A stretch of DNA of 64,000 nt from Saccharopolyspora sp. NFXS83 (lineage in GTDB: Bacteria > Actinomycetota > Actinomycetes > Mycobacteriales > Pseudonocardiaceae): the NCBI RefSeq assembly GCF_026241095.1, contig NZ_JAPFGB010000034.1, positions 1-64,000 of the forward strand, given 5' to 3'. The position numbers and the translations under genes are program-made. Numbering within the stretch: the first letter of the stretch is position 1; each line of letters opens with the position of its first letter. The notes beneath the pieces are model-generated. The model saw nothing but the letters and a program-made list of their open reading frames with translations. It did not search any database and was not told the DNA's origin. Positions 6,154-54,954 of the stretch are shown here, piece after piece.

Positions 6154-6392
6154 GCCTGTCTTTGATCATGTCGTTCCAGTGAGCGGCGGTGGTGGTCGTT
6201 GTCTTGTCAGCGGCAGAGCCGCTGAGCAGTGACCAGCTTGAGCAAGATGACCACCGGCGGGTTCTCAGCGGCTTCCTCGTGAGGACAGCGATTTCGCCGT
6301 GTACGGCATACATCAGAAATCGATCCCGCAGCGAGGAAGCCGCTGAGGTTCCGCTGAGTGACCCGCTACGCAGGCCAAGATCAAAGACAGGC
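6154..6392. mobile_element. Dispersed MITE-like repeat, copy 1 (best preserved)
   Basis: A 239-bp non-coding element bounded by perfect 14-bp terminal inverted repeats, GCCTGTCTTTGATC (6154-6167) and GATCAAAGACAGGC (6379-6392). Inside are a small palindrome, CAGCGGCAGAGCCGCTG, near 6208 and a long hairpin with arms CTCAGCGGCTTCCTCG (6264-6279) and CGAGGAAGCCGCTGAG (6332-6347). The hairpin continues inward with CGATTTC/GAAATCG and GCCGT/ACGGC. It sits between sdaA and purU, splitting what is otherwise a continuous operon. Four further copies occur in the window. No transposase is encoded, so any mobility would need help in trans. Confidence 0.75.
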
Positions 6393-6407
6393 ACTGAGGA
6401 GGATCCG

Positions 6408-7256
6408 TTGACCCGCTCTTTCACGCTCACCTTGAGCTGCCCCAACCGCAGCGGCATCGTGCACGCCGTCAGCTCGTACCTCTTCCAGCACGGCTGCGAC
6501 ATCGGCGAGCACCAGCAGTTCGACGACCCGGTGCGCGGCAGGCTGTTCCTGCGCACCCACGTCACCGCCGGGCACGACATCGACATCGATGAGATCTCGC
6601 GCGGCTTCGAACCCGTCGCCGCCGACTTCGAGATGACCTTCGCCTTCGCCGCCGATCGCAACGCGCGGATCCTGGTGATGGTCTCGAAGCTCGGGCACTG
6701 CCTCAACGACCTGATCTACCGCTGCCGCGCGGGCAGCCTCGGCGCCGACATCGTCGCGGTGGTGTCCAACCACGAGGACCTGCGCCCCATGGCCGAGAAC
6801 GCGGGCCTGCCGTTCATCCACATCCCCGTCACCCGCGACACCAAGCCCGAAGCGGAGGCCCGGCTGCTGCGGGTCGTGGAGGAGCACGACGCCGAGCTCG
6901 TGGTCCTCGCCCGCTACATGCAGGTGCTGTCCGACCAGACCTGCAAGGCCTTGCACGGCAGGGCCATCAACATCCACCACTCGTTCCTGCCCGGGTTCAA
7001 GGGCGCGAAGCCCTACCACCAGGCCTACGGGCGCGGGGTGAAGCTCGTCGGGGCCACCGCGCACTACGTCACCCCGGAACTCGACGAAGGACCGATCATC
7101 GAGCAGGAGGTGATCCGCATCGACCACACCCACGACCCGAAGGCCTTGCAGACGGTCGGCCGCGATGCCGAGGCGCTGGCGCTGTCCCGCGCCGTGCGCT
7201 GGCACTGCGAACGGCGCCTGCTGCTGAACGGGCAGAGCACGGTGGTCTTCCAGTGA
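6408..7256 (+). CDS. purU: Formyltetrahydrofolate deformylase
   Basis: A 282-residue protein that hydrolyses 10-formyl-THF to formate and THF, recycling folate loaded by dimethylglycine oxidase. An ACT domain spans about residues 1-85 (TLTLSCPNRSGIVHAVSSYL), followed by a formyltransferase domain with AINIHHSFLPGFKGAKPYHQ and the ATAHYVTPELDEGPIIEQ loop carrying the family's Asn/His/Asp catalytic residues. The start is TTG at 6408, chosen for the GAGGAGG ribosome site 5 bases upstream. This signal lies just outside the inserted repeat, so translation would survive the insertion. PurU next to dimethylglycine/sarcosine oxidation genes is the known Arthrobacter arrangement. Confidence 0.93.
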   Translation: MTRSFTLTLSCPNRSGIVHAVSSYLFQHGCDIGEHQQFDDPVRGRLFLRTHVTAGHDIDIDEISRGFEPVAADFEMTFAFAADRNARILVMVSKLGHCLNDLIYRCRAGSLGADIVAVVSNHEDLRPMAENAGLPFIHIPVTRDTKPEAEARLLRVVEEHDAELVVLARYMQVLSDQTCKALHGRAINIHHSFLPGFKGAKPYHQAYGRGVKLVGATAHYVTPELDEGPIIEQEVIRIDHTHDPKALQTVGRDAEALALSRAVRWHCERRLLLNGQSTVVFQ

Positions 7257-7498
7257 GCGCCCTCGAACCGCGCGCATGACGGAGATCGACGTCCCTGCCG
7301 CCGATTCCTCCTGCCGCCCTTGACATCCGGCTTCCGGCGCGCTGCTATGTGTAGCGCATCGCGCATCGGGTTGCGTCGTGCGCAACTCCCTTGATCCTGC
7401 TCACCTGCTCCCCTCCGGGGAGCCACGGCCCCACCTCGCCGAGCGCTCGTCCGGAGCGCCTTGACGCGAATCCGTCCTCTCGAGCAAGGAGCACTTCC

Positions 7499-8644
7499 AT
7501 GACGACCGGTGAGCTCTCCGCATCCGTTGAGGAGCAAGGACTCCCCGCGAGCCTGCGGGAAACACTCGCGGGCCACTACTACACCGATCCCGAGATCTTC
7601 CGCGCGGAACAGGACTCGATCTTCGAGGCGGGCTGGTTCTGCTCCGTGCTCAGCGCCGACCTGGCCCGTCCCGGCCAGTACGAGACCGTGCAGATCGGCC
7701 GGGAGAGCGTCATCGTCGTCCGAGGGCGCGACGGCGGCGTCAACGCCCACCTCAACGTGTGCCGGCACCGCGGGGCCCGGTTGTGCACCGAGGAGCAGGG
7801 CGAGGTGCGGCGGTCGTTCCAATGTCCGTACCACGCCTGGACGTACGCGCTGGACGGCAAGCTGATCGCCGCGCCGAACCTCACCGCGATGCCCGACATC
7901 GACCGAGCCGAGTACGGACTGCACCGGGTGCACGTCCGCGAGTGGCTCGGCTACGTCTGGCTGTGCCTGGCCGAGGACCCGCCGTCGTTCGAGGACACCG
8001 TCGTCAACGACGTCACCAACCGCCTGGGCACACCGGACGCGATCGTCGGCTACCAGGTCGCCGACCTCAAGCTCGGCAGGCGCATCGAGTACGACGTGAA
8101 GGCGAACTGGAAGCAGATCGTCGAGAACTTCATGGAGTGCTACCACTGCGCGACGATCCACCCGGAGCTGACCGAGGTGCTGCCGGAGTTCGCCGACGGA
8201 CTCGCCGCCCAGTACTTCGTGGGCCACGGCGCGGAATTCGGCGAGAACATCCAGGGCTTCACCGTCGACGGCTCCGAGGGCGTCGAACGGCTCCCCGGCG
8301 TCAACGAGGAGCAGGACCGGCGCTACTACGCCATCACCGTCCGGCCGCAGGTCTTCATCAACCTGGTGCCCGACCACGTGGTCTTCCACCGCATGTTCCC
8401 GGTCGCCGTGGATCGGACCATCGTGCGGTGCGACTGGCTGTACCTGCCGGAGGTCGTCGACTCGGACGTCGACATCGAGCGCTCGGTGGAGCTGTTCCAC
8501 CGGGTCAACAAGCAGGACTTCGACGCCTGCGAGCGCTGCCAGCTGGCGATGGACTCTCGGTCCTACAAGAGCGGTGGCGTGCTGGTCCCCAGCGAGCACC
8601 ACATCGAGGAGTTCCACGACTGGGTGCGCGCCCGCGTCGGATGA
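7499..8644 (+). CDS. gbcA: Rieske oxygenase, probable glycine betaine monooxygenase
   Basis: A 381-residue ring-hydroxylating-type oxygenase alpha subunit. The Rieske 2Fe-2S motif CxH-x18-CxxH is complete (Cys88, His90, Cys109, His112). The mononuclear iron site is in NFMECYHCATIHPEL, with His216 and His221. Homologous oxygenases (GbcA/BmoA type) demethylate glycine betaine to dimethylglycine, the substrate of the enzyme encoded at 726-3191. A choice between glycine betaine and another betaine such as stachydrine cannot be made from sequence alone, but the pathway context favours glycine betaine. The start is ATG behind AAGGAGCAC. It is followed by a perfect 14-bp hairpin. Confidence 0.85.
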   Translation: MTTGELSASVEEQGLPASLRETLAGHYYTDPEIFRAEQDSIFEAGWFCSVLSADLARPGQYETVQIGRESVIVVRGRDGGVNAHLNVCRHRGARLCTEEQGEVRRSFQCPYHAWTYALDGKLIAAPNLTAMPDIDRAEYGLHRVHVREWLGYVWLCLAEDPPSFEDTVVNDVTNRLGTPDAIVGYQVADLKLGRRIEYDVKANWKQIVENFMECYHCATIHPELTEVLPEFADGLAAQYFVGHGAEFGENIQGFTVDGSEGVERLPGVNEEQDRRYYAITVRPQVFINLVPDHVVFHRMFPVAVDRTIVRCDWLYLPEVVDSDVDIERSVELFHRVNKQDFDACERCQLAMDSRSYKSGGVLVPSEHHIEEFHDWVRARVG

Positions 8645-8655
8645 CCCCTGGCACC

Positions 8656-8685
8656 GGCCCCGTGCGGACGTGTCCGCACGGGGCC
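8656..8685 (+). terminator. Hairpin after the Rieske oxygenase gene
   Basis: A perfect inverted repeat: GGCCCCGTGCGGAC, two-base loop, GTCCGCACGGGGCC, starting 11 bases after the stop codon. There is no strong U tract, as is common for terminators in high-GC actinobacteria. Confidence 0.7.
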
Positions 8686-8759
8686 CTCGTGCTGCGCCGA
8701 AAAGGCGCCCGCACCGCAGGAACCCGTCCCGGTACGGGAGAATCACGTCGTACGTCCTA

Positions 8760-8955
8760 CCGGCCCGCGCTCCAACGTCCCGTCAGCGGCGAAGCCAACG
8801 TGCCGCGACCACCGGAGCACGACGACCCCCGGCGGGTTCTCAGTGGCTTCCCCGCGAGGACAGCAAACGCGCGCATGGCGCAAGCCGCTCGAATAATCGA
8901 TCCCGCAGCGAGGGAGTCGCTGAGGTTCCGCCACCCGACCACCGCGCAAGCCATC
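8760..8955. repeat. Dispersed repeat, copy 2 (degenerate)
   Basis: Carries the shared blocks GTCAGCGGCGAAGCC, GGCGGGTTCTCAGTGGCTTC, CGATCCCGCAGCGAGGGAG and CGCTGAGGTTCCGCCACCCG in the same order as the copies at 6154 and 52966. Terminal inverted repeats are not recognisable and the apical part of the hairpin has diverged. It lies between the oxygenase terminator and the 3' end of the MHS transporter gene. The boundaries are approximate. Confidence 0.7.
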
Positions 8956-8967
8956 CGGGAAGGCGCG

Positions 8968-10401
8968 TCACTGGCGGGGTTGCTCCAAGGGGACGCCCTC
9001 GTCGGACAGCGGCGGGGCGGGGAGCTCGGCGCTGGAGGTCAGCGGGGCTGCGCCGTCGAGGGGGCGTCCGGCCTGCTCCTTCAGGAAGTGGGTGCTGATG
9101 ACGCCGATGACGCCCGCGCCGACCAGGTAGAAACCCGGCCAGTCGAGGTTGCCGGTGGCCGTCACCGCCGCCTCGATGATCGTCGGCGCGGTCCCGGCGA
9201 ACAGCGAGACCGCCAGGTTGAAGATCACGGCCAGGCTGCTGTAGCGGATCATCGTCGGGAACAGCGCGGGCAGCGTCGAGGGCGACACCGCGGCGAAGCA
9301 CACCAACGACATCCCCATGATCAGGAGCCCGGCGACCTGGCCGGCCAGCCCTTCGCGGAGCAGCCACACGGCCGGCAGCCCGAAGAAGATCAGTGACAGG
9401 CTTCCCGCCATGAGAACGGGTTTTCGCCCGATTCGGTCGCTGAGCCGGCCGACGGACACGATCACGCACAGCATCAGGACCATGACGGCGACCTGCAGGG
9501 TGGCCGCCACCGCCTGGCTGCTCCCACCCGCGCCGTTGCGCGGGAGCGTCGCGGCCAGGTAGGTGGGAACGTAGTTCGTCATCACGTAGTTGGTCACGTT
9601 CCACGCGACGATCACACCGGTCGCGACCAGCGCGGCGGAGCGGTAGTGCACCACGACGATCTGCAGCGCGCGCCGCGCGGACATCGTGCTCAGCGCCGGA
9701 GAACGCTCCATCAGCTGCCGGAACGCCGGGGTGTCCTCCAGCCGCATCCGCAGGTAGATGCCCGTCAGGCCCAGCGGCAGCGCGAGCATGAACGGCAGCC
9801 GCCAGCCCCACGACAGCAGGTCGCCCTCCGGCACGGCGGCGATCACCGCGGCGCACACCCCGGCGCCCAGCGCGTATCCGGCCAGGGTGCTGAATTCCAG
9901 CCAGCTGCCGAAGAATCCGCGCCGCCGGTCCGGGGCGTACTCGGCGATGAGGGTGAGGGCACCCGTGTACTCGCCGCCGACGGCGAACCCCTGCAGCATC
10001 CGGACGAGCAGCACCAGCAGCGGAGCGGTGAGGCCGATCGTGCCGTGGCTCGGGACCAACCCGAGCAGCACCGTCGCGACCGCCATCAGCAGCATCGTCG
10101 CCGAGAGCACCTTCGTGCGGCCGATCCGGTCCCCGAGCCGCCCGAACACGAACCCGCCGAGCGGGCGCATCAGGAACGCGGCGGCGAACGCGGCGAGCGT
10201 GTACGCGGTCGCCCACTGGCCGCCGTCGGGGAACAGGACCCGGTCCAGCACGGCGGCGGCCAGGTAGGAGTAGATGCCGAAGTCGTACCACACGGCGACG
10301 TTCCCGACGGAAGTCGCCGCGACCGCCCGGTGGACGGTGCGTTCCTCTTGCACGACAGGAGGAGTCAGGCCCCGCCTGCGACGTCTCGGTTGCTCGGTCA
10401 T
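8968..10401 (-). CDS. MHS-family (ProP-like) proton symporter
   Basis: A 477-residue major facilitator with about 12 membrane segments, of the metabolite:H+ symporter group. It has GNVAVWYDFGIYSYLAA near the N-terminus, the loop GRLGDRIGRTK, and GFAVGGEYTGALTLIAEYAP in helix 5. ProP-type members import glycine betaine, proline or related osmolytes. Here it would bring in the pathway substrate, though the substrate is inferred from context. The start is ATG with GGGGAG upstream. A TGATATATCTG operator-like site lies 88 bases upstream, at nearly the same distance as in front of glyA, which suggests shared control. Confidence 0.82.
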   Translation of the reverse strand: MTEQPRRRRRGLTPPVVQEERTVHRAVAATSVGNVAVWYDFGIYSYLAAAVLDRVLFPDGGQWATAYTLAAFAAAFLMRPLGGFVFGRLGDRIGRTKVLSATMLLMAVATVLLGLVPSHGTIGLTAPLLVLLVRMLQGFAVGGEYTGALTLIAEYAPDRRRGFFGSWLEFSTLAGYALGAGVCAAVIAAVPEGDLLSWGWRLPFMLALPLGLTGIYLRMRLEDTPAFRQLMERSPALSTMSARRALQIVVVHYRSAALVATGVIVAWNVTNYVMTNYVPTYLAATLPRNGAGGSSQAVAATLQVAVMVLMLCVIVSVGRLSDRIGRKPVLMAGSLSLIFFGLPAVWLLREGLAGQVAGLLIMGMSLVCFAAVSPSTLPALFPTMIRYSSLAVIFNLAVSLFAGTAPTIIEAAVTATGNLDWPGFYLVGAGVIGVISTHFLKEQAGRPLDGAAPLTSSAELPAPPLSDEGVPLEQPRQ

Positions 10402-10488
10402 GAGGTCTCCCCAGGTGCGAACTGCGGCGCTCCGCGACAGTGTCGCAACCTCAGCAGCCCCATCACCCTGATCGCGGGGATCGACGGT

Positions 10489-10499
10489 TGATATATCTG
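10489..10499. promoter_or_regulatory. Putative GntR operator, site C (transporter)
   Basis: TGATATATCTG within GTTGATATATCTGT, 88 bases upstream of the MHS transporter start and about 340 bases upstream of the divergent ferredoxin gene. It is the fourth-best match to the shared TGAYATATCAG motif, with one change in the last half-site. Confidence 0.55.
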
Positions 10500-10839
10500 T
10501 GCACGATAAGACAGCGGTCGGGCTGGGTCAACGCCCCGATCGGCTAGTCGATCCGACGCTCCGGACACGGCCCGCCGGGGACGAAACCCGTGCGCTACAA
10601 GCAGATCCCCGCTCCGGTAACGCGAGCGACCCGCTCGACGACGCTCCATCGAGAGCATCCGGCCGAGCGCGATCCCGCGAGCGGCCCAGCCGGCACCGGC
10701 CCTCGGGGTCGTTGCGCGGAGCGCAACCGGGCGCTCGGATTCGCCGCCGAAATTCCATCGTTGACGACCAAGGGGGCGAGCCGCATTCTGTCTGTTGCGA
10801 ATTGCACTACGGGTTCCGCCATCTGCAACAGGAGGCAAC
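10500..10839. other. Non-coding stretch before the ferredoxin gene
   Basis: About 340 bp with no supportable gene. It is the shared control region of the divergent transporter and ferredoxin/reductase genes. Near its right end TTGCGAATTGC precedes the AGGAGG ribosome site of the ferredoxin. I see no clear promoter or second operator copy. Confidence 0.5.
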
Positions 10840-11172
10840 ATGATCTTCGTAGGTGAGCTCGCCGACCTCCCTCCCGGGGAGTCGGCCCGCGTCCAGGGCG
10901 AGGCACCCATCGCGGTGTTCAACGTGGACGGTGAACTGTTCGCGATCGACGACACCTGCACGCACCAGGACGCGTCCCTCTCCGACGGCTGGCTGGAGGG
11001 CTGCGCGGTCGAATGCCCCTTGCACGCGGCCTGTTTCGACCTGCGCACGGGCCGCCCCAGCGGGCCTCCCGCGAAGAAACCCGTTCGCACCCACCAGGTG
11101 TCCGTCGACGACGGCCTGATCTACGTCCTCGAGTCGACGCGGGTCGACGCGGCAGCGGAAGGGGTGAGTTGA
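10840..11172 (+). CDS. Rieske-type [2Fe-2S] ferredoxin
   Basis: A 110-residue soluble ferredoxin of the BphF/BphA3 type. Cluster ligands are Cys40-x-His42 and Cys59-x2-His62 (CTHQDAS and CPLHAACFDLRTG). It should shuttle electrons from the FAD reductase encoded two bases downstream to the Rieske oxygenase at 7499-8644. Pseudomonas GbcB is a single reductase carrying a plant-type ferredoxin domain, so a separate Rieske ferredoxin makes this a three-component system. The start is ATG with a perfect AGGAGG site. The opposite orientation of the transporter gene places a shared control region upstream. Confidence 0.88.
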   Translation: MIFVGELADLPPGESARVQGEAPIAVFNVDGELFAIDDTCTHQDASLSDGWLEGCAVECPLHAACFDLRTGRPSGPPAKKPVRTHQVSVDDGLIYVLESTRVDAAAEGVS

Positions 11173-11173
11173 T

Positions 11174-12337
11174 TTGCGGGACATCACGATCGTCGGGGCG
11201 TCGCTGGCCGGCCTGACGACCGCCCGCTCCTTGCGGGAGCAGGGTTTCGACGGGCGGATCGTCGTGATCGGCGACGAGGAGCACGCGCCCTACGACCGCC
11301 CGCCCCTGTCCAAGGAGTTCCTGGCGGGCACCTCCTCCGAGGACGACATCGGCCTGACCGAGCCGGAGGACTCCGGGCTGGGCATCGAGTGGCGGCTGGG
11401 CAGCAGGGCCGAAGCCCTCGACACCGGTGAGCGCGCGGTGCTGCTCGACGACGGGGAGCGCATCACCGCCGACGGTGTCGTGCTGGCCACCGGGGCGCGG
11501 GCGCGCACCCTGCCGGACTCGGTGCCCGAAGGCGTGCACACCCTCCGCACGCTCGACGACGCCCGCGCGCTGCGCAAGGAACTCGTGCCCGGGGCGCGGC
11601 TGATCGTCATCGGAGCCGGGTTCATCGGAGCCGAGATCGCCTCGACCGCGGTCGGGCTCGGCTGCGAAGTGGACATCGTCGAAGCGGCGGCCGTTCCCCT
11701 GCAACGAGCGCTGGGCACCGACATGGGCGCGGTGTGCGGCCGGCTGCACGCCCGCAACGGCGTCCGGATGCACCTGCGGGCCGGTCTGGCCGAACTGGTC
11801 GGCGAGCTCCGCGTGACGGCCGTCCGGCTCGAAGACGGGCGCGAGCTGCCCGCCGACGTGGTGGTGGTCGGCATCGGCGCCCAGCCGAACGTGGAATGGC
11901 TGGCGGACTCGGGAATCCCGTTGCACAACGGCGTTCTCACCGACGAACGGGGCCTGACCGACGTCCCCGGCGTCGCGGCCGTCGGCGACTGCGCCAACTC
12001 GCACCGGTCCTACACCGCGGAATCCATGCGGCTGGAGCACTGGACGAACGCGCTGCAGCAACCCGCGGCGGCCGTCGCGGCGCTGCTGGGCCGGGAGCAC
12101 GCCGCACCCGCCCACCACGCGGTCCCCTACTTCTGGTCCGACCAGTACGGCCACCAGATCCAGTTCGCGGGGCACCGCACGGCGGACTGCTCGATCCAGG
12201 TGGAAGAAGGAGATCTCGACTCCGGCGACTTCCTGGCGCTCTACGTCGACGGCGCGGGCGCTCCGGTCGGAGTGCTCGGCATCGACCGCCCCCGCGCGTT
12301 CGGCCGATGGCGCCGACGCCTCGCGGGCAGACTCTGA
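11174..12337 (+). CDS. Ferredoxin reductase, NAD(P)H/FAD-dependent
   Basis: A 387-residue BphA4/rubredoxin-reductase-type flavoprotein. It has an N-terminal FAD-binding VGASLAGLTTARSLREQG, the typical YDRPPLSKEFL segment, a second dinucleotide fold VIGAGFIGAEIAST, and VAAVGDCAN for FAD binding near residues 270-280. It would transfer electrons from NAD(P)H to the Rieske ferredoxin encoded immediately upstream (one base between stop and start). The start is TTG at 11174 with GGGGTGAG upstream; the spacing to the ferredoxin stop implies coupled translation. The dedicated electron chain supports an oxygenase partner in the same cluster. Confidence 0.9.
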   Translation: MRDITIVGASLAGLTTARSLREQGFDGRIVVIGDEEHAPYDRPPLSKEFLAGTSSEDDIGLTEPEDSGLGIEWRLGSRAEALDTGERAVLLDDGERITADGVVLATGARARTLPDSVPEGVHTLRTLDDARALRKELVPGARLIVIGAGFIGAEIASTAVGLGCEVDIVEAAAVPLQRALGTDMGAVCGRLHARNGVRMHLRAGLAELVGELRVTAVRLEDGRELPADVVVVGIGAQPNVEWLADSGIPLHNGVLTDERGLTDVPGVAAVGDCANSHRSYTAESMRLEHWTNALQQPAAAVAALLGREHAAPAHHAVPYFWSDQYGHQIQFAGHRTADCSIQVEEGDLDSGDFLALYVDGAGAPVGVLGIDRPRAFGRWRRRLAGRL

Positions 12338-12479
12338 CCGCTCACCGACGCGACGCGCTCCCCAGGCAGCACCGCCGTCCGCACCGGGCTCCGCGCGGAC
12401 CCGGTCGGAGTCCTGCACGAGCCGGCACGCCGTCGGACGACATCACCCACGCGTTCCGGCGCTGCGACACGGGCTCGGA

Positions 12480-12507
12480 CGGGAACGCGACCCAGGTCTC
12501 GTTCCCG
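12480..12507. terminator. Hairpin between convergent reductase and gntR genes
   Basis: CGGGAACG and CGTTCCCG around a 12-base loop, lying between two genes that converge. Probably a weak bidirectional terminator. The other 170 bases of this gap contain nothing else recognised. Confidence 0.45.
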
Positions 12508-12536
12508 CTCGCCTACCCCGGTCGCTCCGGCGGGTG

Positions 12537-13199
12537 TCAGACCACCGCCCGGATCGCCTTCTCGAAACCCAGCACGTGCTCGCGGGCGAGCCGCTCGGAC
12601 TCGGCGGAGTCGCGCGCGCCGATCGCCCGCAGCAGCGCGGTGTGCTCACCGACGTGGCTGTCGAAGTTCACCATCCGGTCCAGGAACAGGCAGAAGATCC
12701 GAGTCGCCAGGTTGTCGTAGCGCACCAGGGTGTCCTCCAGGTGCGGATTCCCCGCCGCCCTGTAGATGGCGCGGTGCACGTGCAGGTCCCAGCGCATCAA
12801 CTCGTCCCGGCTGAGCGAGCGCACGTCGACCCGGTCCAGGGCATCGGCCAGCTCGGCCACCTCGCCCAGCTTCGCCGCGTCCGCGGATTCGGCGGCCCGC
12901 CGAGCCGCCAGCGGTTCCAACTGCGCCCGCAGCTCGGAGATGTAGGCGAGGTCGGTGATGTCGACGGCCGTGGCGAAGGTGCCCCGCCGCGGGTAGGACA
13001 CCACGAGCCGGTCGATCTCCAGCCGCTTGAGCGCCTCGCGCACCGGAGTCCGGCCGATGTCCAGCGATCCGGCGAGGGCCACGTCGTCGATCGCGGTCAT
13101 GGGCGGGATGTCGAGCATGATCAGTCGGTCCCGGATGGCCGCGTACGCCTTGTCGGCCATCGAGGTGTACACCGGTTCACCGCTGGTCACAGCGCCCAT
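12537..13199 (-). CDS. GntR-family regulator with FCD ligand domain
   Basis: A 220-residue regulator. The winged helix occupies about residues 15-75 (AYAAIRDRLIMLDIPPM, then IGRTPVREALKRLE, the classic GntR recognition region). The FCD domain has DLHVHRAIYRAAGNPHL and a later EH pair; FadR/VanR-type FCD domains bind metal plus a carboxylate with such Asp/His residues. It sits at the end of the betaine island and has a TTGACATATCAG site 54 bases upstream of its own start. That suggests autoregulation and control of the glyA, dmgO and transporter promoters carrying the same motif. The effector is unknown; a pathway intermediate such as dimethylglycine or glycine betaine would be natural. Confidence 0.85.
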   Translation of the reverse strand: MGAVTSGEPVYTSMADKAYAAIRDRLIMLDIPPMTAIDDVALAGSLDIGRTPVREALKRLEIDRLVVSYPRRGTFATAVDITDLAYISELRAQLEPLAARRAAESADAAKLGEVAELADALDRVDVRSLSRDELMRWDLHVHRAIYRAAGNPHLEDTLVRYDNLATRIFCLFLDRMVNFDSHVGEHTALLRAIGARDSAESERLAREHVLGFEKAIRAVV

Positions 13200-13252
13200 C
13201 CCGTCCTCGGCGTCGTCGACGGGCAGCAGCTTCCGAAGGTGCCGAGATGACT

Positions 13253-16611: not shown

Positions 16612-16614
16612 CGG

Positions 16615-17776: not shown

Positions 17777-18331
17777 GTGCGCTACCACCGCGCCGACATC
17801 GTCGATCGCGCCCTCGCGGTGCTCGACGAGTACGGGCTGGAATCGCTGACGATGCGCAGGCTCGCGGCCGAGCTCGGCGTGCAACCCAGCGCGCTCTACC
17901 ACCACGTGCCGAACAAGCAGACGCTGCTGGCCGCGATCGCCGACGAGATCTTGCGCCGCGGCCGACGACCGCACCGGGCCACGGAGTGGGACGGGCGCGT
18001 CGTCGAGCTCTGCGGGCAACTGCGGGACGCGATGCTCGCGTACCGCGACGGCGCCGAGGTCGTCGCCACGGCGCACACCTTCGGCCTCGGCCGGGACGAC
18101 ACCGCCGGCAGGCTCCGCGACGCGCTGCGCGACGGCGGCCTGCCCGCGGACCTGGTGGACCTGGCCACCCGCACCTTCCTGCACCTCGTGTTCGGGCACG
18201 CCACCGAGGAGCAGACCGCGCTGCAGGCCGCGAGCGCCGGTGCGATCGATCGCGACCCCGGCGGCCCCGACGACTTCGAACGAAGCCTGGAACTCGTCCT
18301 CGACGGACTTCGGGCCAGGACTCTTCCTTGA
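17777..18331 (+). CDS. bioQ: TetR-family biotin regulator BioQ
   Basis: A 184-residue TetR protein. The helix-turn-helix is in about residues 5-48 (IVDRALAVLDEYGLESLTMR, AAELGVQPSALYHHVPNKQT), followed by an all-helical ligand domain. The start is GTG behind GGGAAGG. Divergence from bioBAFD with the two palindromes between them identifies it as BioQ, the actinobacterial repressor of biotin genes. No biotin-ligase domain is present, so biotin status must be sensed some other way. A member of the dispersed repeat family follows directly after the stop codon. Confidence 0.85.
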   Translation: MRYHRADIVDRALAVLDEYGLESLTMRRLAAELGVQPSALYHHVPNKQTLLAAIADEILRRGRRPHRATEWDGRVVELCGQLRDAMLAYRDGAEVVATAHTFGLGRDDTAGRLRDALRDGGLPADLVDLATRTFLHLVFGHATEEQTALQAASAGAIDRDPGGPDDFERSLELVLDGLRARTLP

Positions 18332-18334
18332 CCT

Positions 18335-18510
18335 GAGCACGGCGCGGACGGCGGAACCTCAGCGGATTCCGCACTGCGGGACCGAGTTCGCGAGCGGCTC
18401 CGCCACGCGCGACATCGCCGCCCTCACGAGGAAACCGCCGCGGGTCGACCTGCCCTGGTGGCCGCCGCTCAGCGGCTTCGCCGCCGGCAAGACCGCGCGC
18501 CACGAGAGGT
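18335..18510 (-). repeat. Dispersed repeat, copy 3 (inverted, divergent)
   Basis: On the minus strand it reads GGCGGCGAAGCCGCTGAGC, GGTTTCCTCGTGAGG, GGCGATGTCGCGCGTGGCGG, CCCGCAGTGCGG and CCGCTGAGGTTCCGCC, in the same order as the other copies. It is the most diverged copy. It occupies the gap between bioQ and the decayed cupin gene, next to the deletion scar at about 18690. Confidence 0.6.
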
Positions 18511-41481: not shown

Positions 41482-41509
41482 CCGACCCCTTCCCACTGCA
41501 CCGCGGCCG

Positions 41510-41561
41510 GAGTGAGCGGACCGTTCGACCAACCGGACTGGACGAACGGTCCGTTCACTCC
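41510..41561. repeat. Large palindrome 1 of 3
   Basis: GAGTGAGCGGACCGTTCGACC, a short loop, then GGACGAACGGTCCGTTCACT: a nearly perfect 20-bp stem. Each arm itself contains a near-palindrome (CGGACCG / GAACGGTCCGTTC). It lies 28 bases upstream of the SMP-30 start codon. Confidence 0.8.
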
Positions 41562-41616
41562 ACCCCCTGCCCACCCCCTCAGAAGATCAACACTGCCGCC
41601 GTTCCCTGTCGGGTTC

Positions 41617-41667
41617 GAGTGAACGGACCGTTCGTCCCATCGGATTGGGCGAACGGTCCGTTCACTC
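41617..41667. repeat. Large palindrome 2 of 3
   Basis: GTGAACGGACCGTTCGTCCC and GGGCGAACGGTCCGTTCAC around an 8-base loop; the stem has a single G:T-type change. Same unit as the palindromes at 41510 and 41740. Confidence 0.8.
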
Positions 41668-41739
41668 CGACAAGCTCGTGCGCCGTGCGGGAGTGTGTCG
41701 CACGTTGCGATGTGCGATGCATCGGTGCGGGTGTGGTTC

Positions 41740-41792
41740 GGGGTGAACGGACCGTTCGTCCAGCGGGATTGGACGAACGGTCCGTTCACCCC
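41740..41792. repeat. Large palindrome 3 of 3
   Basis: GTGAACGGACCGTTCGTCC and GGACGAACGGTCCGTTCAC around a 9-base loop, flanked by GGG/CCC, giving a perfect stem of more than 20 bp. It ends 21 bases downstream of the alcohol dehydrogenase stop codon (minus strand), where a terminator would be expected. Confidence 0.8.
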
Positions 41793-48137: not shown

Positions 48138-48158
48138 CTCGACCGGATCGAGCCGCCA

Positions 48159-48430: not shown

Positions 48431-49228
48431 TCAACTGGTTCGGGTGCGGGGTCCGCGGCCGGTCGCCAAGTGGTGGTCGACGGTGAGATTGATGCCGGTG
48501 CAGAGGGCGACCAGCAGGGCAGCCGGGACGAGGACCGCGCACGGTTGCAGGAACAGCGCCTCCTGATTGCGCTCGACCAGCACCGCCCAATCGGCGGTGG
48601 CGGGGTCGAGTCCCAGGCCGAGGAAGTTCGCCGAGGCGACGAGGTACAGCACCAGGCTCAGCCTGCCGCCCGCGTCCACGGCGACGGGCGCGAGCACGCC
48701 GCGACCGATGTAGCCGAAGTGGATGCGCCACCACGATTCCCCTTGCAGCGCCATCGCTTCCACCGCGCCGCGCCGGCCCGCGTCGAGCGCCGCGCCGCGC
48801 ACGATCCGCACCACGGCGGGAAGTTGCAGCACCGCCACGGCGACCACGAGCGCGCCCGCCGTCCGGGTTCCGGTGGCGGCCAGCACCATCAGCACCAGCA
48901 ATCCGGGCAGCGCCAGCACCAGGTCCAGGCCGCGGGTGAGCCACCGGTCCGCCCAGCGGTACGGCTGGCCCACCGCGGCCAAGGCCAGCGGCACCCCGGC
49001 CAGGTAGGACAGGGCGAGCGCTCCCCCGGCCAGCGCCAGCACCGATCCGCCGCCGTGCAGCGCCAGGCCGAGCACGTCCCGGCCGAGCACGTCGGTGCCG
49101 AGCGGGTGCGCGCCGCCGGGGGGCAGCAGCGGGATGCTCGCCGCGCGCACCGGCCCGGCCGACAGCGGCCCGGCCAGCGCCGCCAGCAGCGGCACGCCGA
49201 GCAGCACCCAGCCGAGGACGCGGCTCAT
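48431..49228 (-). CDS. ABC permease, DppC type
   Basis: A 265-residue inner-membrane permease of the peptide/nickel type. It has GGAHPLGTDVLGRDVLGLAL, typical of DppC/NikC, and the EAA-like loop REAMALQG-type segment GAVEAMALQGESWWRIHFGY. About six membrane segments. The start is ATG overlapping the dppB-type stop (ATGA). It forms the heterodimeric channel with the upstream permease. Slightly shorter than typical DppC. Confidence 0.82.
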   Translation of the reverse strand: MSRVLGWVLLGVPLLAALAGPLSAGPVRAASIPLLPPGGAHPLGTDVLGRDVLGLALHGGGSVLALAGGALALSYLAGVPLALAAVGQPYRWADRWLTRGLDLVLALPGLLVLMVLAATGTRTAGALVVAVAVLQLPAVVRIVRGAALDAGRRGAVEAMALQGESWWRIHFGYIGRGVLAPVAVDAGGRLSLVLYLVASANFLGLGLDPATADWAVLVERNQEALFLQPCAVLVPAALLVALCTGINLTVDHHLATGRGPRTRTS

Positions 49229-50211
49229 CGCGCACCCGCCCGGAACCGGCGCGCCGCCAGGTCGATGACCAGGTTCACTCCGATCGTGATCGCGGCGAAC
49301 AGCAGCGCATGGCCTTGCACCGCGGGCAGATCCCGAGCGCGCACCGCCTCCACGAACCCGGAGCCGAGTCCGTTGAGCGCGAACAGCGCCTCCACCACGA
49401 CCACGCCGCCGAGCAGTCCGTCCACGGTGCGCGCGAGTTGTTGCAGCACCGGGCCGATCGCGTTCGGCAGCACGTGGCGCAGCACGACGCCGCGCTCGCC
49501 GATCCCGGCGCGGCGCGCGTGCGTGGCGAACTCGGCGGAGTTCGCCACCACCACGCCGGTGCGGACCTGCCTCGCAAGCGCGGACAACTGCTTGGCCACC
49601 AGGACCGCCACCGGCAGCACCAGCACCGCGGGTTCGGCCGTCAACGACCACCCGGACAGCCCGGCGGCCGTCGCCGGCAACCAGCCCGCCTGCACCGAGA
49701 ACACGCCCACCAGCAGCAGCGCCAGCGCGAACTCGGGCATCGAGTTCAGCAGCACCACCGCGGAGTTCACCGACCGGTCGAACCGGGATCCGGCGCGCAG
49801 CCCGCTGCGCGCGCCGAGCCACAGCGCCAGCGGCAGCACGATCAGCAGGGTCAGCGCCGCCAGCAGCACCGTCGTCGCGGCGTTGCCCGCGATCTCGTCG
49901 ACCACCGGGCGCCCGGTGCGCAGCGAGGTGCCGAGGTCGCCGTGCAGGATTCCCGCCGCCCAGTCCAGGAATCGGGTGCCCAGCGGCTCGTCCAGGCCGA
50001 GGCGCCGTCGCAGGGCGTCGACCCGCCCGGCGTCGGCGTGCTCGCCGAGCACGACTTCGGCGGTGTCGCCGGGAAGCAGCGCGGTGAGCGCGAACACGCC
50101 GACGGCGACCAGCGCGATCTGCGCCGCCGCGACGCCGATCCGGGACAGCACCGCGCCGAGCACCCGGGCACCGGGGGCCGCCCCGCGCAGCTGCGGAGCG
50201 AGCGCGATCAC
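49225..50211 (-). CDS. ABC permease, DppB type
   Basis: A 328-residue permease with the DppB/NikB layout: an N-terminal helix (IGVAAAQIALVAVGVFALTA), LLPGDTAEVVLGEHADAGRV, RRLGLDEPLGTRFLDWAAGI, GDLGTSLRTGRPVVDEI, and the EAA loop AGIGERGVVLRHVLPNAIGP. The start is GTG at 50211, overlapping the binding-protein stop by GTGA. Transcription should depend on the cobalamin riboswitch leader upstream of the binding-protein gene. Confidence 0.85.
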   Translation of the reverse strand: MIALAPQLRGAAPGARVLGAVLSRIGVAAAQIALVAVGVFALTALLPGDTAEVVLGEHADAGRVDALRRRLGLDEPLGTRFLDWAAGILHGDLGTSLRTGRPVVDEIAGNAATTVLLAALTLLIVLPLALWLGARSGLRAGSRFDRSVNSAVVLLNSMPEFALALLLVGVFSVQAGWLPATAAGLSGWSLTAEPAVLVLPVAVLVAKQLSALARQVRTGVVVANSAEFATHARRAGIGERGVVLRHVLPNAIGPVLQQLARTVDGLLGGVVVVEALFALNGLGSGFVEAVRARDLPAVQGHALLFAAITIGVNLVIDLAARRFRAGAR

Positions 50212-51731
50212 CCCACGCTCACCCGGTCGAACCGGGCCCAGTCCAGCGAGTTCGGCGGTGCGCCGCGCACTCCGGACACCTGGTCGGAGGTGGCGACGTT
50301 CCAGCCGCTGAAGCCCCACACCACCATGCCGCTGTGCTCCCGCGACAACCGCTGCGCCCGCGCCAGCAGCTCCGCGCGCCGCGATTCGTCCGCTGTGGAC
50401 AGAGCTTCGGCGTGCAGCGCGTCGAACTCGGCGGAGCGGTAGCCGGTGTAGTTGTCGACGCCCGCGTCGGAGGTCATGCGCTGGCCGAGGAACGTCGGCA
50501 CCGGCAACGCGGCGGTCCTGCTCAGCGAGGCCACGCCGTGCTCCTTGATGTCGGAGAAGTACGTTTCCGACGGCCCGATCCGCGGTGTCACGCGCATCCC
50601 GACCTCGCCCAGCTGCTGGGAGATCAGGCTCGCCGCCGACTCGAAGTACGGGTCGACGGAGCTGGTCTGCAATTCCCAGCTGAGCCCGTCGGCGCGGGCC
50701 TCCCGCAGCAGGGACCGGGCGAGCTCCGGGTCACGCGCGGGTTCGGGCAGGTCCGCGGGGTAGAACCGCAGACCGGCGCCGAACAGGTCGTTGCCGATCC
50801 GGCCTTGGCCGCTGAGCGCGATGCGGAGCAGCGCCTCGCGGTCCAGCCCCGCCCGCACGGCCCGCACCAGCCTGGGGTCGGAGAACGGCGGCCGGTCGAC
50901 CTTGAGCAGCAACGACTGCATGGTGCCGAACGGCGCGGAGTGCACGCGCGCCCGGCCGCCCTGCTCCAGCAGGCGCACCGAGTTCGCGCTGACGTCGTGG
51001 GCGTAGTCGACCTGGCCGGACAGCAGCGCGTTCACCCGCGCGCTCTCCTCCTCCATCGGCACGAACTCCAGCTCGGCCGGGGTGGCCGGGCCGGACCAGT
51101 GGCCGTCGAACCGGGCGAACACGGCGGGTTTGCCGGGCTCGAAGGAGACGAAGCGGAACGGTCCGGAGCCGACGGGCGCGGTGAAGTCGGTCGTTCCGGC
51201 GGGCACGATCTCGGTGGCCGGGGCTCCCCACGCCGAGGGGAACTCGAAGTTCGGCGCGCCCAGCACCAGTTCCAGCTCGGTCGCCGAAATCGCTTCGCTG
51301 GCACCGAAATCCACGTCGGCGAAGTGCGCGCTCGCGTGCGCGGCGGTGGAGTCGTCGGCGATGCGCCGGTACGTGCAGAGCACGTCTTCGGCGGTCACCG
51401 GCCGACCGTCGTGGAACTTCGCCGGGCGCAGCCGGATCCGCCAGCGGGTCCCGGTCGGATCCGGCTGCCACGACTCGGCGAGGCGCGGCACCACGCTCAT
51501 GTCGTCGGCGTAGCCGACGAGCGTGTCGAACAGCGCTTTCGCCCGCGCCTGGTCGACGAACAGCGAGCCGGTGTGCGGGTCCAGGGATTCGGTGGCCCCG
51601 CCCGCGGGGAACGCCACCCGCAGCCGCCCCGGGCTCGACCCGGAGCCGCCGGAGCAGGACACCAGGGGCACGGCGGCGAACGCTCCCGCGACACCCGCGA
51701 GCAGCCGCCTGCGGCCGATCACGCCGCTCAC
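50208..51731 (-). CDS. ABC substrate-binding lipoprotein (family 5), B12-regulated
   Basis: A 507-residue SBP_bac_5-type periplasmic-style binding protein. The N-terminus has a twin-arginine-like GRRRLLAGVAGAF and a lipobox ending VPLVSC, so it is probably a lipoprotein. Family motifs are PRLAESWQPDPTGTRWRIRL, FHDGRPVTAEDVLCTYRRI and LEFVPMEEESARVNALLSGQ. GTG at 51731 is preferred: the longer frame back to 51860 starts inside the riboswitch, while this start overlaps the stop of a short leader ORF. Riboswitch control suggests uptake of cobalt, nickel, a corrinoid or a precursor, but the binding-protein family is the peptide/nickel one. Confidence 0.82.
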   Translation of the reverse strand: MSGVIGRRRLLAGVAGAFAAVPLVSCSGGSGSSPGRLRVAFPAGGATESLDPHTGSLFVDQARAKALFDTLVGYADDMSVVPRLAESWQPDPTGTRWRIRLRPAKFHDGRPVTAEDVLCTYRRIADDSTAAHASAHFADVDFGASEAISATELELVLGAPNFEFPSAWGAPATEIVPAGTTDFTAPVGSGPFRFVSFEPGKPAVFARFDGHWSGPATPAELEFVPMEEESARVNALLSGQVDYAHDVSANSVRLLEQGGRARVHSAPFGTMQSLLLKVDRPPFSDPRLVRAVRAGLDREALLRIALSGQGRIGNDLFGAGLRFYPADLPEPARDPELARSLLREARADGLSWELQTSSVDPYFESAASLISQQLGEVGMRVTPRIGPSETYFSDIKEHGVASLSRTAALPVPTFLGQRMTSDAGVDNYTGYRSAEFDALHAEALSTADESRRAELLARAQRLSREHSGMVVWGFSGWNVATSDQVSGVRGAPPNSLDWARFDRVSVG

Positions 51732-51793
51732 GCGACGGGGAAGGACTCGGGGAACCGCCCGGAATCCGGCGTGTACAGCGAGTTCGGGTGCAC
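51728..51793 (-). CDS. Short leader ORF, 21 aa, coupled to the binding protein
   Basis: A GTG codon 6 bases after a strong GAGGAGG begins a 21-codon frame (VHPNSLYTPDSG...) whose TGA overlaps the GTG of the binding-protein gene (GTGA). The binding-protein start has no ribosome site of its own, so translation of the leader probably delivers ribosomes to it. This provides a point where the riboswitch could act by hiding the leader ribosome site. No known peptide family recognised. Confidence 0.6.
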   Translation of the reverse strand: MHPNSLYTPDSGRFPESFPVA

Positions 51794-51840
51794 TTCGTAC
51801 CTCCTCGGGGCTCCGCGACCCCGTGCGAATCGGTACGACG

Positions 51841-52015
51841 ATGCCAGTCTCCTGGCTCATGGATCAGCGCCGCGCCCCGCCTTCCCACCGGTTTCCCGGC
51901 AGTGGCCCCAGTGGACGCGGCTCCCCATTCACAGTGGCGGGACCGCGCCGGATTCGCACCGGCTTCCTGCACACCGTCGCAGTGGAACGTCGCGACAACC
52001 TTTCAGCCTGCGTCG
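51841..52015 (-). ncRNA. Cobalamin riboswitch
   Basis: The minus strand between the DUF899 gene and the ABC operon carries the conserved AdoCbl riboswitch parts in order: GGAAGCCGGTGCGAATCCGG (51951-51967 region), GCGGTCCC, the B12 box GCCACTGTGA (51929-51938), a GGGGAGCC segment, and the distal hairpin GCCAGGAGACTGGC (51843-51856). It ends about 50 bases before the leader ORF. In this class, bound cobalamin represses expression, so the ABC genes should be on when B12 is scarce. The outer boundary near 52015 is approximate. Confidence 0.88.
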
Positions 52016-52108
52016 ATCGTTGTCAAGAAACATGTGAACCACCCGATGCAGGACGACCTGCGGTCATCGCACGACCCCGCTGCGACGGCGTTCCCGACCC
52101 CCCAGTGA

Positions 52109-52867
52109 TCAGTATTCGTCGTGGTAGCGGACCTTGTCGCTCCCGGCCGGGGCTCCGACGACGCTCGCACGCCCCTCCGGTTCCTCCCACTCCTCCTGCC
52201 TGCCCAGTGCGGTCAGGTCGAGCAGGCTGGTGGTGCTGCCGAGGCCGTCGAGTCCGCGCGCGTACGTGGAGTAGGTGTGGAACACGGCGTCACCGTCGCG
52301 CAGGAACACGCTCAGGCCGGGGAGTTCGAACGGCTCGGATCCCTCGACGTAGTAGCCGGCTCCGGACTGCTCCAGCTCGGCCTTGCTGCGGTAGTTGTAC
52401 TCGATCGGCGACACCGACTCGTCGTGGGTGACGTGGAAGTCGTGGTTGAACCGGCCGCCGCCGGACGAGTACCACGGGAAGGCCCAGCCCATCCGCCGCT
52501 TGAACGGTTCGATCTTGTCCAGCGGCGCCCGCGAGACCACGACCAGCGACGTGTCCCGCGCGCGCAGGTGCGTCAGGTCGCCGAACTGGTCGACGAACCC
52601 GGAGCAGCTCGGGCAGCCCGCGTCCCAGCTCGGGTCGAACATGAAGTGGTAGATCAGCAGCTGGCGGCGCTCGTCGAACAGGTCGAGCAAGGTGGCCGTC
52701 CCGTCCGGGCCGTCGAAGCGGTAGTCCTCGTCGATCCGCACCATCGGCAACCGCCGCCGGTCCGCGTTGAGCGCGTCCCGCGCCTTCGTCGCCGCCTTCT
52801 CCCGCGCCAGCAGCTCCTTGCGCGCGGCGAGCCATTCCTCCCGCGACACGACCTCGGGCAAGCTCAT
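52109..52867 (-). CDS. DUF899 thioredoxin-fold protein
   Basis: A 252-residue protein of the DUF899/AhpC-TSA-like group. It opens VVSREEWLAARKELLAREKA, then LPMVRIDEDYRFDGPDG, LIYHFMFDPSWDAGCPSC (redox-like CPSC), SGFVDQFGDLTHLRARDTS and RMGWAFPWYSSGGGRFNHDF. Members are widespread in actinobacteria and probably have thiol-disulfide or peroxide-related functions, unproven. The start is ATG with GAGGAGG. Transcribed away from the DUF6461 pair. Confidence 0.85.
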   Translation of the reverse strand: MSLPEVVSREEWLAARKELLAREKAATKARDALNADRRRLPMVRIDEDYRFDGPDGTATLLDLFDERRQLLIYHFMFDPSWDAGCPSCSGFVDQFGDLTHLRARDTSLVVVSRAPLDKIEPFKRRMGWAFPWYSSGGGRFNHDFHVTHDESVSPIEYNYRSKAELEQSGAGYYVEGSEPFELPGLSVFLRDGDAVFHTYSTYARGLDGLGSTTSLLDLTALGRQEEWEEPEGRASVVGAPAGSDKVRYHDEY

Positions 52868-52965
52868 CGTCGTCCTCCTCGGTTGTCCGTTTCACCGAGG
52901 AGGACCACCCGGCCCGCGAGAACTCATCGCGGGGCGCGCCGGTTCCCCCGAACGGACCACCGAGA

Positions 52966-53184
52966 GCCTGTCTGCGAGCTCGTCTTGGTCCGCGTCTCGT
53001 CAGCGGCGAAGCCGCTGAGCGGTGACCACCCACGCGGACCGACCACCGGCGGGTTCTCAGCGGCTTCCTCGCGAGGACAGCGATTTCCGCGTATCGGACG
53101 TACATCAGATATCGATCCCGCGGCGAGGGAGCCGCTGAGGTTCCGCCACCCGACCCACTGCGCAGACCAAGGTCACAGACATGC
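52966..53184. mobile_element. Dispersed MITE-like repeat, copy 4
   Basis: 219 bp. The left end GCCTGTCT and right end AGACATGC keep recognisable terminal inversion. The internal palindrome CAGCGGCGAAGCCGCTG and long hairpin arms (CTCAGCGGCTTCCTCGC and GCGAGGGAGCCGCTGAG) are as in copy 1, with one G:T pair. It lies between the divergent DUF899 and DUF6461-like genes, in the same orientation as copy 5. Confidence 0.75.
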
Positions 53185-53268
53185 CCTCGGGGTGCTCGCG
53201 AGACTCGTTGTCAGGGGTCTGGTGCAGAGTGTCGCCATCACAAGATCGCCACTCGACGAGGACCACCG

Positions 53269-53937
53269 ATGACAGCACCCGAATTCCCCGCGGACACCTT
53301 GGATTCCGAAGGAGGTCCCGCCTGGCTCTCCGAACTCGGCTCGGGGGACCCGCACCAGCTCGTGCACCTGGTGCGCGACTTGCAGCCGCTCCAGGCGCTG
53401 GAGGTGCTGGGGGCGAAGCTCCAGCACCTCCGGCCGTGCGCCTTGCCGCAGGAGCGCGCCGACGAGCACACCTCGCTGCCGCGCACCGCGCTCGGCGACT
53501 CCGAGTGCAGCGCGGTGCTGCTGGCCGGGCGGATCCGCGGCTGGACCTTCGTCTTCGACGACGCGGGCATGACGTCCGAGGTCTCGGACGTCGGCGGAGC
53601 CTTGGTGACCCCCGCGATGGCGCTGTCCCGGACCGGTGGTGCGGCGCTGAGCCTGGCCAACAACTTCAGCGGACCGAGCTGCGGCCTCGATTTCGCCGAG
53701 CACGGCGCAGAAGTGCTGTGGACGAACTCCGACGACCTCGACGTGATCGCGCCCGGCCTGGAAGGCAGGCTCAAGGACGCCGTCGACGCCGCCGGGATCG
53801 TGGAGCAGGACTACCTGGATCCGGGTGAGCGCGATCCGGAGGCGGTCATCCGCATGGGCTGCGTGCTCGCGGGGATCACCTCCTGGACCTCGGCGGACAT
53901 CCGCGCCGCCGACCTGGTGATGCTGCCGTTCGGTTGA
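53269..53937 (+). CDS. DUF6461-like protein, first paralog
   Basis: A 222-residue cytosolic protein resembling DUF6461: HLVRDLQPLQALEVLGAKLQ, SAVLLAGRIRGWTFVFDDAG, SLANNFSGPSCGLDFAEHG, DYLDPGERDPEAVIRMGCVL. The start is ATG with GAGGAC upstream. It is followed after 79 bp by a clear paralog. No enzymatic motif is visible; the family is unknown, and small acidic Trp-rich proteins of this kind are sometimes immunity or sensor proteins (speculation). Confidence 0.7.
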   Translation: MTAPEFPADTLDSEGGPAWLSELGSGDPHQLVHLVRDLQPLQALEVLGAKLQHLRPCALPQERADEHTSLPRTALGDSECSAVLLAGRIRGWTFVFDDAGMTSEVSDVGGALVTPAMALSRTGGAALSLANNFSGPSCGLDFAEHGAEVLWTNSDDLDVIAPGLEGRLKDAVDAAGIVEQDYLDPGERDPEAVIRMGCVLAGITSWTSADIRAADLVMLPFG

Positions 53938-54016
53938 GCTCGATCGTCGATTCCGCAGGGCGCCGCCGTGCCGAACCGGCAGCGCCCCCACCACTTCCCG
54001 ACTGCGAGGAGATGTC

Positions 54017-54751
54017 GTGCCCACACCCGGTTTTCCGGCTGGAACCCTGGACACCGACGACCGCCCGATCTGGATGTCCGAACTGGACCCGATCGGTCAT
54101 TCCACCGTGCACCTCGTCCGCGACGTGCAACCGCGCGCGGCGCTGGAGCTGCTCGGCCTCGACGCCGGTTCCGCCGTGCCGTGCACGTTGCCCGCGCGGT
54201 CTCCCGACGAGTCCACCTCGTTGCCGCGCGCGGCCCTCGGCGACCCCGACTGCGTCGCGGTGCTGCTGGCAGGCCGGGTCAGCGGCTGGACGCTGGTGTT
54301 CGACGACGCCGGTGCGACCTGCGAGGTCGGCAACCTGGAACGCGCCCGTGCGGTGAACGCGGCGGCCGGCGGCGACTGGTCCGGGCTGGAGTCGATGGCG
54401 GGCAAGCCGCGACCGGCTGTGCAGGACCCGAGCGCAGTCCTGTCCGCCGGGGGCGGACCCGCGGTGACGATCCAGACGAACTTCACCGGGCCCCCGGTCG
54501 GCGTCGGGTACGCGATCGACGGCGAGCTCGTCTTCAGCACCGACGCGCACGACCTGGACCTGCGGGACCCGCAACCGCGGTCCGACGTCCGCGCGGCGAT
54601 CGCGGCAGCGGGCGTCTCCGACGAGGACGGCCTGGACCCCGGCGAGCCGGACATCTTCGGCGTGGCCCGAATCGGCTGCGCCCTCGCGGGCGTCACCTGG
54701 ACGATGGACGACCTGCGAGCGACCGACCTGATCGCGATCACGTTCGACTGA
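54017..54751 (+). CDS. DUF6461-like protein, second paralog
   Basis: A 244-residue paralog of the preceding protein with the same blocks in order: HLVRDVQPRAALELLGL, VAVLLAGRVSGWTLVFDDAG, IQTNFTGPPVGVGYAIDGEL, DGLDPGEPDIFGVARIGCAL, TWTMDDLRATDLIAITFD. An insertion near residue 115-145 (ERARAVNAAAGGDWSG) and divergence throughout show the duplication is old. The start is GTG with GAGGAG upstream. The pair is bracketed by two copies of the dispersed repeat. Confidence 0.7.
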   Translation: MPTPGFPAGTLDTDDRPIWMSELDPIGHSTVHLVRDVQPRAALELLGLDAGSAVPCTLPARSPDESTSLPRAALGDPDCVAVLLAGRVSGWTLVFDDAGATCEVGNLERARAVNAAAGGDWSGLESMAGKPRPAVQDPSAVLSAGGGPAVTIQTNFTGPPVGVGYAIDGELVFSTDAHDLDLRDPQPRSDVRAAIAAAGVSDEDGLDPGEPDIFGVARIGCALAGVTWTMDDLRATDLIAITFD

Positions 54752-54760
54752 GGCGGCCAG

Positions 54761-54954
54761 GCCTTCCCTTCGATCAGCGTCCTGTCAGCGGCGAAGCCGC
54801 TGAGCAGCGCCCCCGGAGCAAGACGACCACCGGCGGGTTCTCAGCGGCTTCCTCGTGAGGACGGCGATTTCTCCCGTGGCGGAGCCACCAGTGGAATCGA
54901 TCTCGCGGCGAGGAAGCCGCTGAGGTCCGCCACCCGCCCCACTGCGCAAGAGGA
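54761..54954. mobile_element. Dispersed MITE-like repeat, copy 5
   Basis: Shares GTCAGCGGCGAAGCCGCTG, GGCGGGTTCTCAGCGGCTTC, GGCGATTTC and CGAGGAAGCCGCTGAGG with copies 1 and 4, with its own apical hairpin (GTGGC/CCAC). The left end GCCTTCCCTTCGATCA is a degraded terminal repeat; the right end is truncated at the HrpB stop codon. Same orientation as copy 4, 1.6 kb away. Confidence 0.75.

Follow-up and report, generated by a model that had tools for sequence, protein, structure and literature searches.

Among the repeats of bacterial genomes, the Correia/NEMIS, RUP and ERIC elements are classical miniature inverted-repeat transposable elements (MITEs). REPINs of the REP-RAYT systems of Pseudomonas and E. 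coli are intergenic and of high copy number, and combine conserved boxes with a variable paired spacer that bears compensatory changes, according to PMC3116915. BOX elements of pneumococcus are modular small interspersed repeats with a stable fold, and the traits of MITEs, i.e. short, gene-free and folded, are given in the same source (PMC3049150). Here we describe a repeat family with five intergenic copies in the window, i.e. the whole 64,000-nt stretch that was analysed, which comprises positions 1-64,000 of contig NZ_JAPFGB010000034.1 of Saccharopolyspora sp. NFXS83. The genome it belongs to (G000) is a 6.9 Mb draft in 70 contigs, 97.5% complete. The family is several hundred folded, gene-free copies in this genome, and consists of a hairpin with conserved loops and covarying stems, one block of which is close to a random draw when the same site is compared between sister species.

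The family resembles each of the above systems in part, and we claim membership in none of the REPIN, BOX or MITE classes. The traits listed for REPINs recur here, but REPINs go with a RAYT gene whereas G000 contains no Y1_Tnp gene; furthermore, the family unit is much longer, some copies carry terminal repeats with a target duplication, and none of the parsed shared sites has the same left-arm stem block in both species. REPs are palindromes of 20-40 bp (PMC3733652) that occur in inverted pairs, whereas the unit here is one ~97-bp hairpin within 150-240 bp. The BOX likeness extends to one subtype (type B, see below), in which a mini-hairpin array, delineated by eye, precedes the main hairpin much as the boxB repeats lie between boxA and boxC in PMC3049150. 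Type B copies likewise seem, by eye, to hold their end modules fixed while the internal modules vary in number. In contrast to BOX, some family copies have terminal repeats and the host group is a different one; the likeness is one of description rather than sequence, and no Rfam match was obtained. With classical MITEs the family shares its short, gene-free and folded nature, together with the terminal repeats and target duplication of copy 1. However, it is GC-rich rather than AT-rich, most copies are without recognisable ends, no parent insertion sequence was found, and a conserved multi-loop fold extends over several genera.

A single covariance model (R1), built from 50 copies, matches all five window copies (E 5e-38 to 3e-14), and an alignment (A1) places their common blocks in identical order. 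The training set held four of the five; copy 3 was outside it, and its score is hence independent. Copy 1 is a complete type A element of 242 bp (6152..6393, + strand; model match 6230-6382, +, E 4.7e-38). Its terminal inverted repeats are perfect over 14 bp, with GCCTGTCTTTGATC at 6154..6167 (+) and the exact reverse complement at 6379..6392 (-). Between these lie a small 7-bp hairpin termed SL1 (CAGCGGC-AGA-GCCGCTG, 6208..6224, +) and the main hairpin (6259..6354, +), defined by folding and covariation, which runs from GGGTTCTCAG to CTGAGGTTCCGC and contains conserved internal loops and an apical stem. The main hairpin layout is GGGTTCTCAG-N8-TCGCGAGGACAGC-apical stem-GATCCCGCAGCGA-N8'-CTGAGGTTCCGC, with an 8-nt variable stem block in each arm. 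In copy 1, block comparisons among copies place the left block, CGGCTTCC, at 6269..6276 (+) and its complement, the right block, at 6335..6342 (+). Copy 2 (8805..8958, +, E 7.8e-27) and copy 5 (54806..54958, +, E 2.5e-33) consist of hairpin and flanking linker with no clear terminal repeats. Copy 4 (52966..53184, +; model match 53022-53174, E 4.8e-38) retains degraded terminal repeats with 10/12 matches at each end, while copy 3 (18324..18465, -) is degraded, its hairpin base is partly deleted and its match is weak (E 2.7e-14, 48 bits). A window scan for the terminal repeat with up to two mismatches returned copy 1 and one unrelated site (9388-9401) only, with nothing in copies 2-5. The five copies with their ordered blocks and the perfect repeats of copy 1 had been proposed in a sequence-only reading, and both are confirmed. 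That reading also assigned degraded ends to copies 4 and 5, which is correct for copy 4, copy 5 having no clear terminal repeats, and held that the basal stem is kept by all, from which copy 3 departs in that 11 bases, GGGTT among them, are missing from the left foot of its hairpin (alignment A1).

Copy 1 as RNA folds far better than dinucleotide shuffles (z -7.8), and its hairpin as DNA far better than shuffles (z -7.4). We compared a sample of 50 sequences and 35 pairs with 500 shuffles by five measures. Standard pairs occupy 96.7% of cells compared to 83.1% when shuffled, both-side changes occur at 20 of the 35 pairs, and 214 cells are changed on both sides as against 61 in the shuffles. 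None of the 500 shuffles reached any of the five measures, a count that is not a probability given that the sequences are related. Sliding the partner by 1-3 columns reduces pairing to 39-54%, although this control is flattered by a structure derived from the tested alignment. Three of the four helices display both-side changes, in own-genus as well as other-genus copies. At the other-genus loci the loop sequences are preserved and the stems have changed in concert, in some cases from TCGC/GCGA to TGGC/GCCA and from CTCAG/CTGAG to CTGAG/CTCAG. Across 134 distinct copies, the 8-nt stem block forms a mean of 7.5 out of 8 Watson-Crick pairs, compared to 5.6 for shuffled arms. It is strongly supported that the fold is under structural constraint, in agreement with the sequence-only reading; because the fold covaries, pairing matters, be it to a copying machinery or as RNA. 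By eye, GGTTC and GACCACC-like motifs occur to either side of the main hairpin, on one strand and in mirrored order, and face each other in the fold (alignment A2), an arrangement as if for a putative dimeric binder.

The five-copy element of the sequence-only reading is true for the window but not for the genome. A 26-base core with up to three mismatches occurs at 113 places in G000, compared to none for the reversed pattern. With the stem block left unspecified, a pattern matches exactly at 75 places in G000, 271 in the sister genome G120, 158 in G137 (both single-contig genomes), 89 in G101, 12 in G046 (from the genus of G000) and 13 in G079, with 0 for the reversed control in all six. In 259 kb of G000, made up of six synteny segments, a profile search detected 21 elements, which extrapolates to near 560 per genome; this figure is somewhat high, as a known copy served to position five of the six segments, and the window itself holds 5 in 64 kb. 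The G000 contigs C18, C19, C21, C26, C30 and C42 end inside or beside hairpins, as if short-read assembly broke there, and draft copy counts may therefore be low. Beyond these genomes, blastn with copy 4 (scoring no more than two candidates in each genome) found relatives in 70 of the 297 genomes of the bacterial family and in 14 of its 46 genera. The covariance model R1, which had recovered the five window copies, matched 2 of 394 genomes in a class-wide search, both Pseudonocardiaceae, with at most seven candidates scored per genome and strict filters. The main hairpin was found by profile in all 24 fetched other-genus loci (L073-L096).

Two subtypes can be distinguished. Type A, to which all window copies belong, has the order outer arms (with or without GCCTGTCTTTGATC), small hairpin of the CAGCGGC-GAA-GCCGCTG type, linker, main hairpin and tail. 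Type B has the main hairpin in common with type A, preceded by the array of small GGCGAAGCC hairpins seen by eye and by a ATGCGCGAAGCGCATAGCCCACGTCGA module. Examples in G000 include L097, L099 and L120, and a script search found none in the window. Part of the ATGCGCGAAGCGCATAGCCCACGTCGA module occurs at 82 places with up to three mismatches, compared to 9 for the reversed control. Small hairpins akin to SL1 precede the main hairpin in many other-genus copies, as judged by eye. A longer apical part is seen at G046:C30:265161-265265 and G079:C1:4454892-4454996, where the pattern match spans 105 bases versus ~92 in most.

We compared 36 G000 copies with the corresponding places in G120, and 18 of these with G137. 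The G120 flanks are mostly 93-98% identical, while elements at the same place and in the same orientation are 74-89% identical in local alignment (60% for L133). Ranked against all 82 G000 copies, the same-site element came first in 7 of 38 comparisons, a result weakened by consensus-like copies that match everything. By alignment score, the core is missing in 7 of 36 rows and better inverted in 4 of 36 for G120 (one further row without anchor was left out), with corresponding values of 9 of 18 and 2 of 18 for G137. The L162/G120 row, scored as core-less, aligns end to end and represents a decayed copy. Three whole-element inversions in place are firm (L100 and L120 in G120, L133 in G137); L166, L157 and L137, with short inverted matches, were not counted as such.

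A second sample consisted of the six contiguous synteny segments, in which elements were taken by the profile detector irrespective of their block, five of the segments having been placed around a copy picked by a motif containing the common block. For the 21 G000 elements, the G120 place is occupied in 17 cases, empty in 3 and unmapped in 1; two of the occupied places are inverted, and these include the weak copy 3. Two of the 17 same-site pairs were dropped with an unparsable block, leaving 15. While the aligned segments are 91-95% identical, the same-site stem block is preserved in 0/15 pairs on the left and 2/15 on the right. Left block divergence is 37.5% for same-site compared to 40.6% for random pairs (p 0.23), and right block divergence 36.7% compared to 40.8% (p 0.18). 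In contrast, the outer left arm diverges by 36.3% at the same site versus 45.7% at random, and the outer right arm by 28.1% versus 49.0% (0/500 in both cases). The two species thus have the insertion in common and have inherited its outer arms, with a stem block that comes close to a random draw. Among the 100 G120 copies listed, 27 variants of the block occur, of which the commonest stands at 12 sites and 10 were seen once; this block sharing among sites points to copying between sites over free mutation.

The ends of copy 1 are set by an empty site in G137, where the flanks meet with a 4-base overlap, CTGA, that is single there and present at both ends of 6152-6393 in the window (6148..6151 and 6394..6397, neither assigned a strand). 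TGA, the stop codon of the upstream gene (a serine dehydratase gene by Pfam), forms part of the left CTGA. The site contains no element in G046, G079 and G101, and a clearly different element in G120. A second clean empty site in G137, for L131, has TGA at a stop codon. Most other inspected sites are not cleanly readable because the spacers have diverged; exact 5-bp repeats lie outside the element ends of L093 (CTCAG, in another genus) and L142 (CTGAG). Terminal repeats with at least 11/16 matches are found at 11/39 left and 6/39 right ends of type A, compared to 1.5% and 2.3% of shuffled windows, and at 0/25 left and 1/25 right ends of type B. Recognisable terminal repeats are kept by a minority of copies only. 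The description as MITE-like is therefore apt for copy 1, with its empty site and CTGA duplication, and for this minority of type A, but not for the whole family, as type B shares the hairpin and not the ends.

With moderate confidence, we interpret these copies as an old, non-autonomous, intergenic REPIN/MITE-like family, spread by a transposase that is lost, rare or unrecognised, with hairpins exchanged among copies. The copies would have been spread in trans by this transposase and would survive where promoters are undisturbed. The resident hairpin would then repeatedly be replaced by that of another copy, either by non-allelic conversion or by nested insertion, in which a new copy inserts into the old stem and the old copy is lost. 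The outcome would be a site that is inherited and a stem block that hardly is. The fold may be kept through recognition of the folded single strand by the copying machinery, or through action as RNA; the data fit either. Left flanks of terminal-repeat copies match another family member in 6/21 cases (one only at E 0.005), compared to 1/21 in the control. Placement was assessed with a simple codon-composition gene caller and with gene pairs unweighted by spacer length. Of the 82 G000 copies, 76 could be placed, none of them within a gene. Convergent gene pairs flank 36 of these, co-directional pairs 35 and divergent pairs 5, compared to 11 convergent, 24 co-directional and 10 divergent among 45 adjacent gene pairs of the window. 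This fits survival away from promoters, and by itself is no proof of function.

Several observations weigh against this interpretation. The exchange is inferred from the pattern, with no donor tract traced, and the 15-pair test has low power. Apical parts diverge by 18.1% in same-site pairs versus 21.4% in random pairs (p 0.018), and the hairpin is therefore not wholly memoryless. A poorer detector that missed copies gave 10 pairs with a block divergence of 0.312 versus 0.408 (p 0.02 in both arms), i.e. some memory. Nesting at right flanks was found in 0/16 cases. Target duplications, although present as CTGA for copy 1 and TGA for L131, are not above permutation over 22 candidates (lowest p 0.08, 16 settings). 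The transposase with matching 14-bp termini envisaged in the sequence-only reading did not emerge from the three families searched (Y1_Tnp, DUF4096 and DDE). Y1_Tnp (PF01797) has 0 matches in G000 at E 0.01, with the same search positive in 6 of 14 control genomes; DUF4096 has no match in G000; and none of the DUF4096 or DDE_Tnp_1 loci of G000, G120 and G137 has convincing ends, other transposase families lying outside this search. An IS5-type parent was rejected given that G000 has no DUF4096; in a terminal-repeat scan of 34 loci, each in a 1.7-kb window, the best gave 12/16 on the left with 11/16 on the right and most 10-11, which, with no shuffles made, is a weak negative. At C1:127609, terminal-repeat matches forming an inverted pair of 949 bp were likewise discarded, as they lie within genes resembling phosphate transport genes.

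Alternatively, the hairpin could itself be what moves. As a folded single strand of DNA or RNA it would be copied and home into resident copies of the family, where it would replace their hairpin and at times turn it round; insertion sites would then be inherited, and the stem sequence drawn anew from a genome-wide pool. We consider this unlikely; if true, it would constitute a self-homing, gene-free element with a novel copying enzyme.

It is unlikely that the family represents a structured RNA or terminator of transcription that the host maintains at the 3' ends of genes and that is incidentally copied. Such a role would be in keeping with covariation across several genera and with copies near gene ends, but no T-run follows the hairpin in the window copies (by eye), related genomes lack an element at a number of the sites, and copies beside co-directional genes have no clear strand preference (13 ++ and 22 --). 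A strand test of RNA versus DNA is split. On the + strand the stem block has 39 U.G pairs versus 12 A.C mismatches, the direction RNA selection would give, whereas the apical stem has no wobble bias (16 versus 19, own tally); these counts are not independent events.

A REP/REPIN system, in which hairpins would be moved as single-stranded DNA by a genome-encoded RAYT-type (Y1, HUH) transposase, appears quite improbable. The intergenic position, the hundreds of copies, the folded unit and the conserved boxes around a variable spacer with compensatory changes all resemble the REPINs described in PMC3116915. Against this stand the negative Y1_Tnp search in G000, the unit length and copy 1 itself, with its terminal inverted repeats and its target duplication of 4 bp. 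HUH transposition is not expected to give either. We give equally little credence to a dead, neutral MITE with stems perfected solely by template-switch palindrome repair and no selection: such repair perfects hairpin arms and would change both arms together, in line with the mostly two-armed block changes, yet conservation across genera extends to the internal loops GAGGACAGC / GATCCCGCAGC and GGTTC but not to the paired block, three separate helices covary, and template switching alone gives no shared pool of alternative blocks.

A known RNA was rejected for lack of an Rfam match at gathering score. With 4227 Rfam models, no element in the window matched at this score, and a search of four loci with E allowed up to 1 yielded four matches, none of which reached it. 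The sole window match lies elsewhere, and is a cobalamin riboswitch at 51825-52007 (-) (RF00174, 98.7 bits). Phage origin was rejected given no exact pattern match in IMG/VR and no blastn match in phages, and plasmid origin given no blastn match in plasmids. Other window features include three 54-bp palindromic repeats of the form GTGAACGGACCGTTCG ... CGAACGGTCCGTTCAC at 41508-41561, 41615-41668 and 41739-41792, the second being 85% and the third 87% like the first, which by eye belong to a different family. Between copies 4 and 5, the open frames 53362-53937 and 54107-54751 share 81% identity over 125 bp and have no Pfam match. The tagged-palindrome paper (PMC3733652) mentions none of the five actinobacterial names for which it was checked. 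Narrow searches of the open-access literature, a coverage outside which most subscription papers lie, found no description of the family.

The present work thus adds a large repeat family, of which no description was found in the open-access literature, within a group of actinomycetes. This group is known for antibiotics. For the evolution of bacterial hairpin repeats the family provides a sharp natural test: the hairpins at sites shared by sister species have preserved their pairing and loops, but their stem blocks are nearly unrelated. Either strong exchange between copies or a novel hairpin-copying enzyme would account for this, and both are testable in strains that can be grown.

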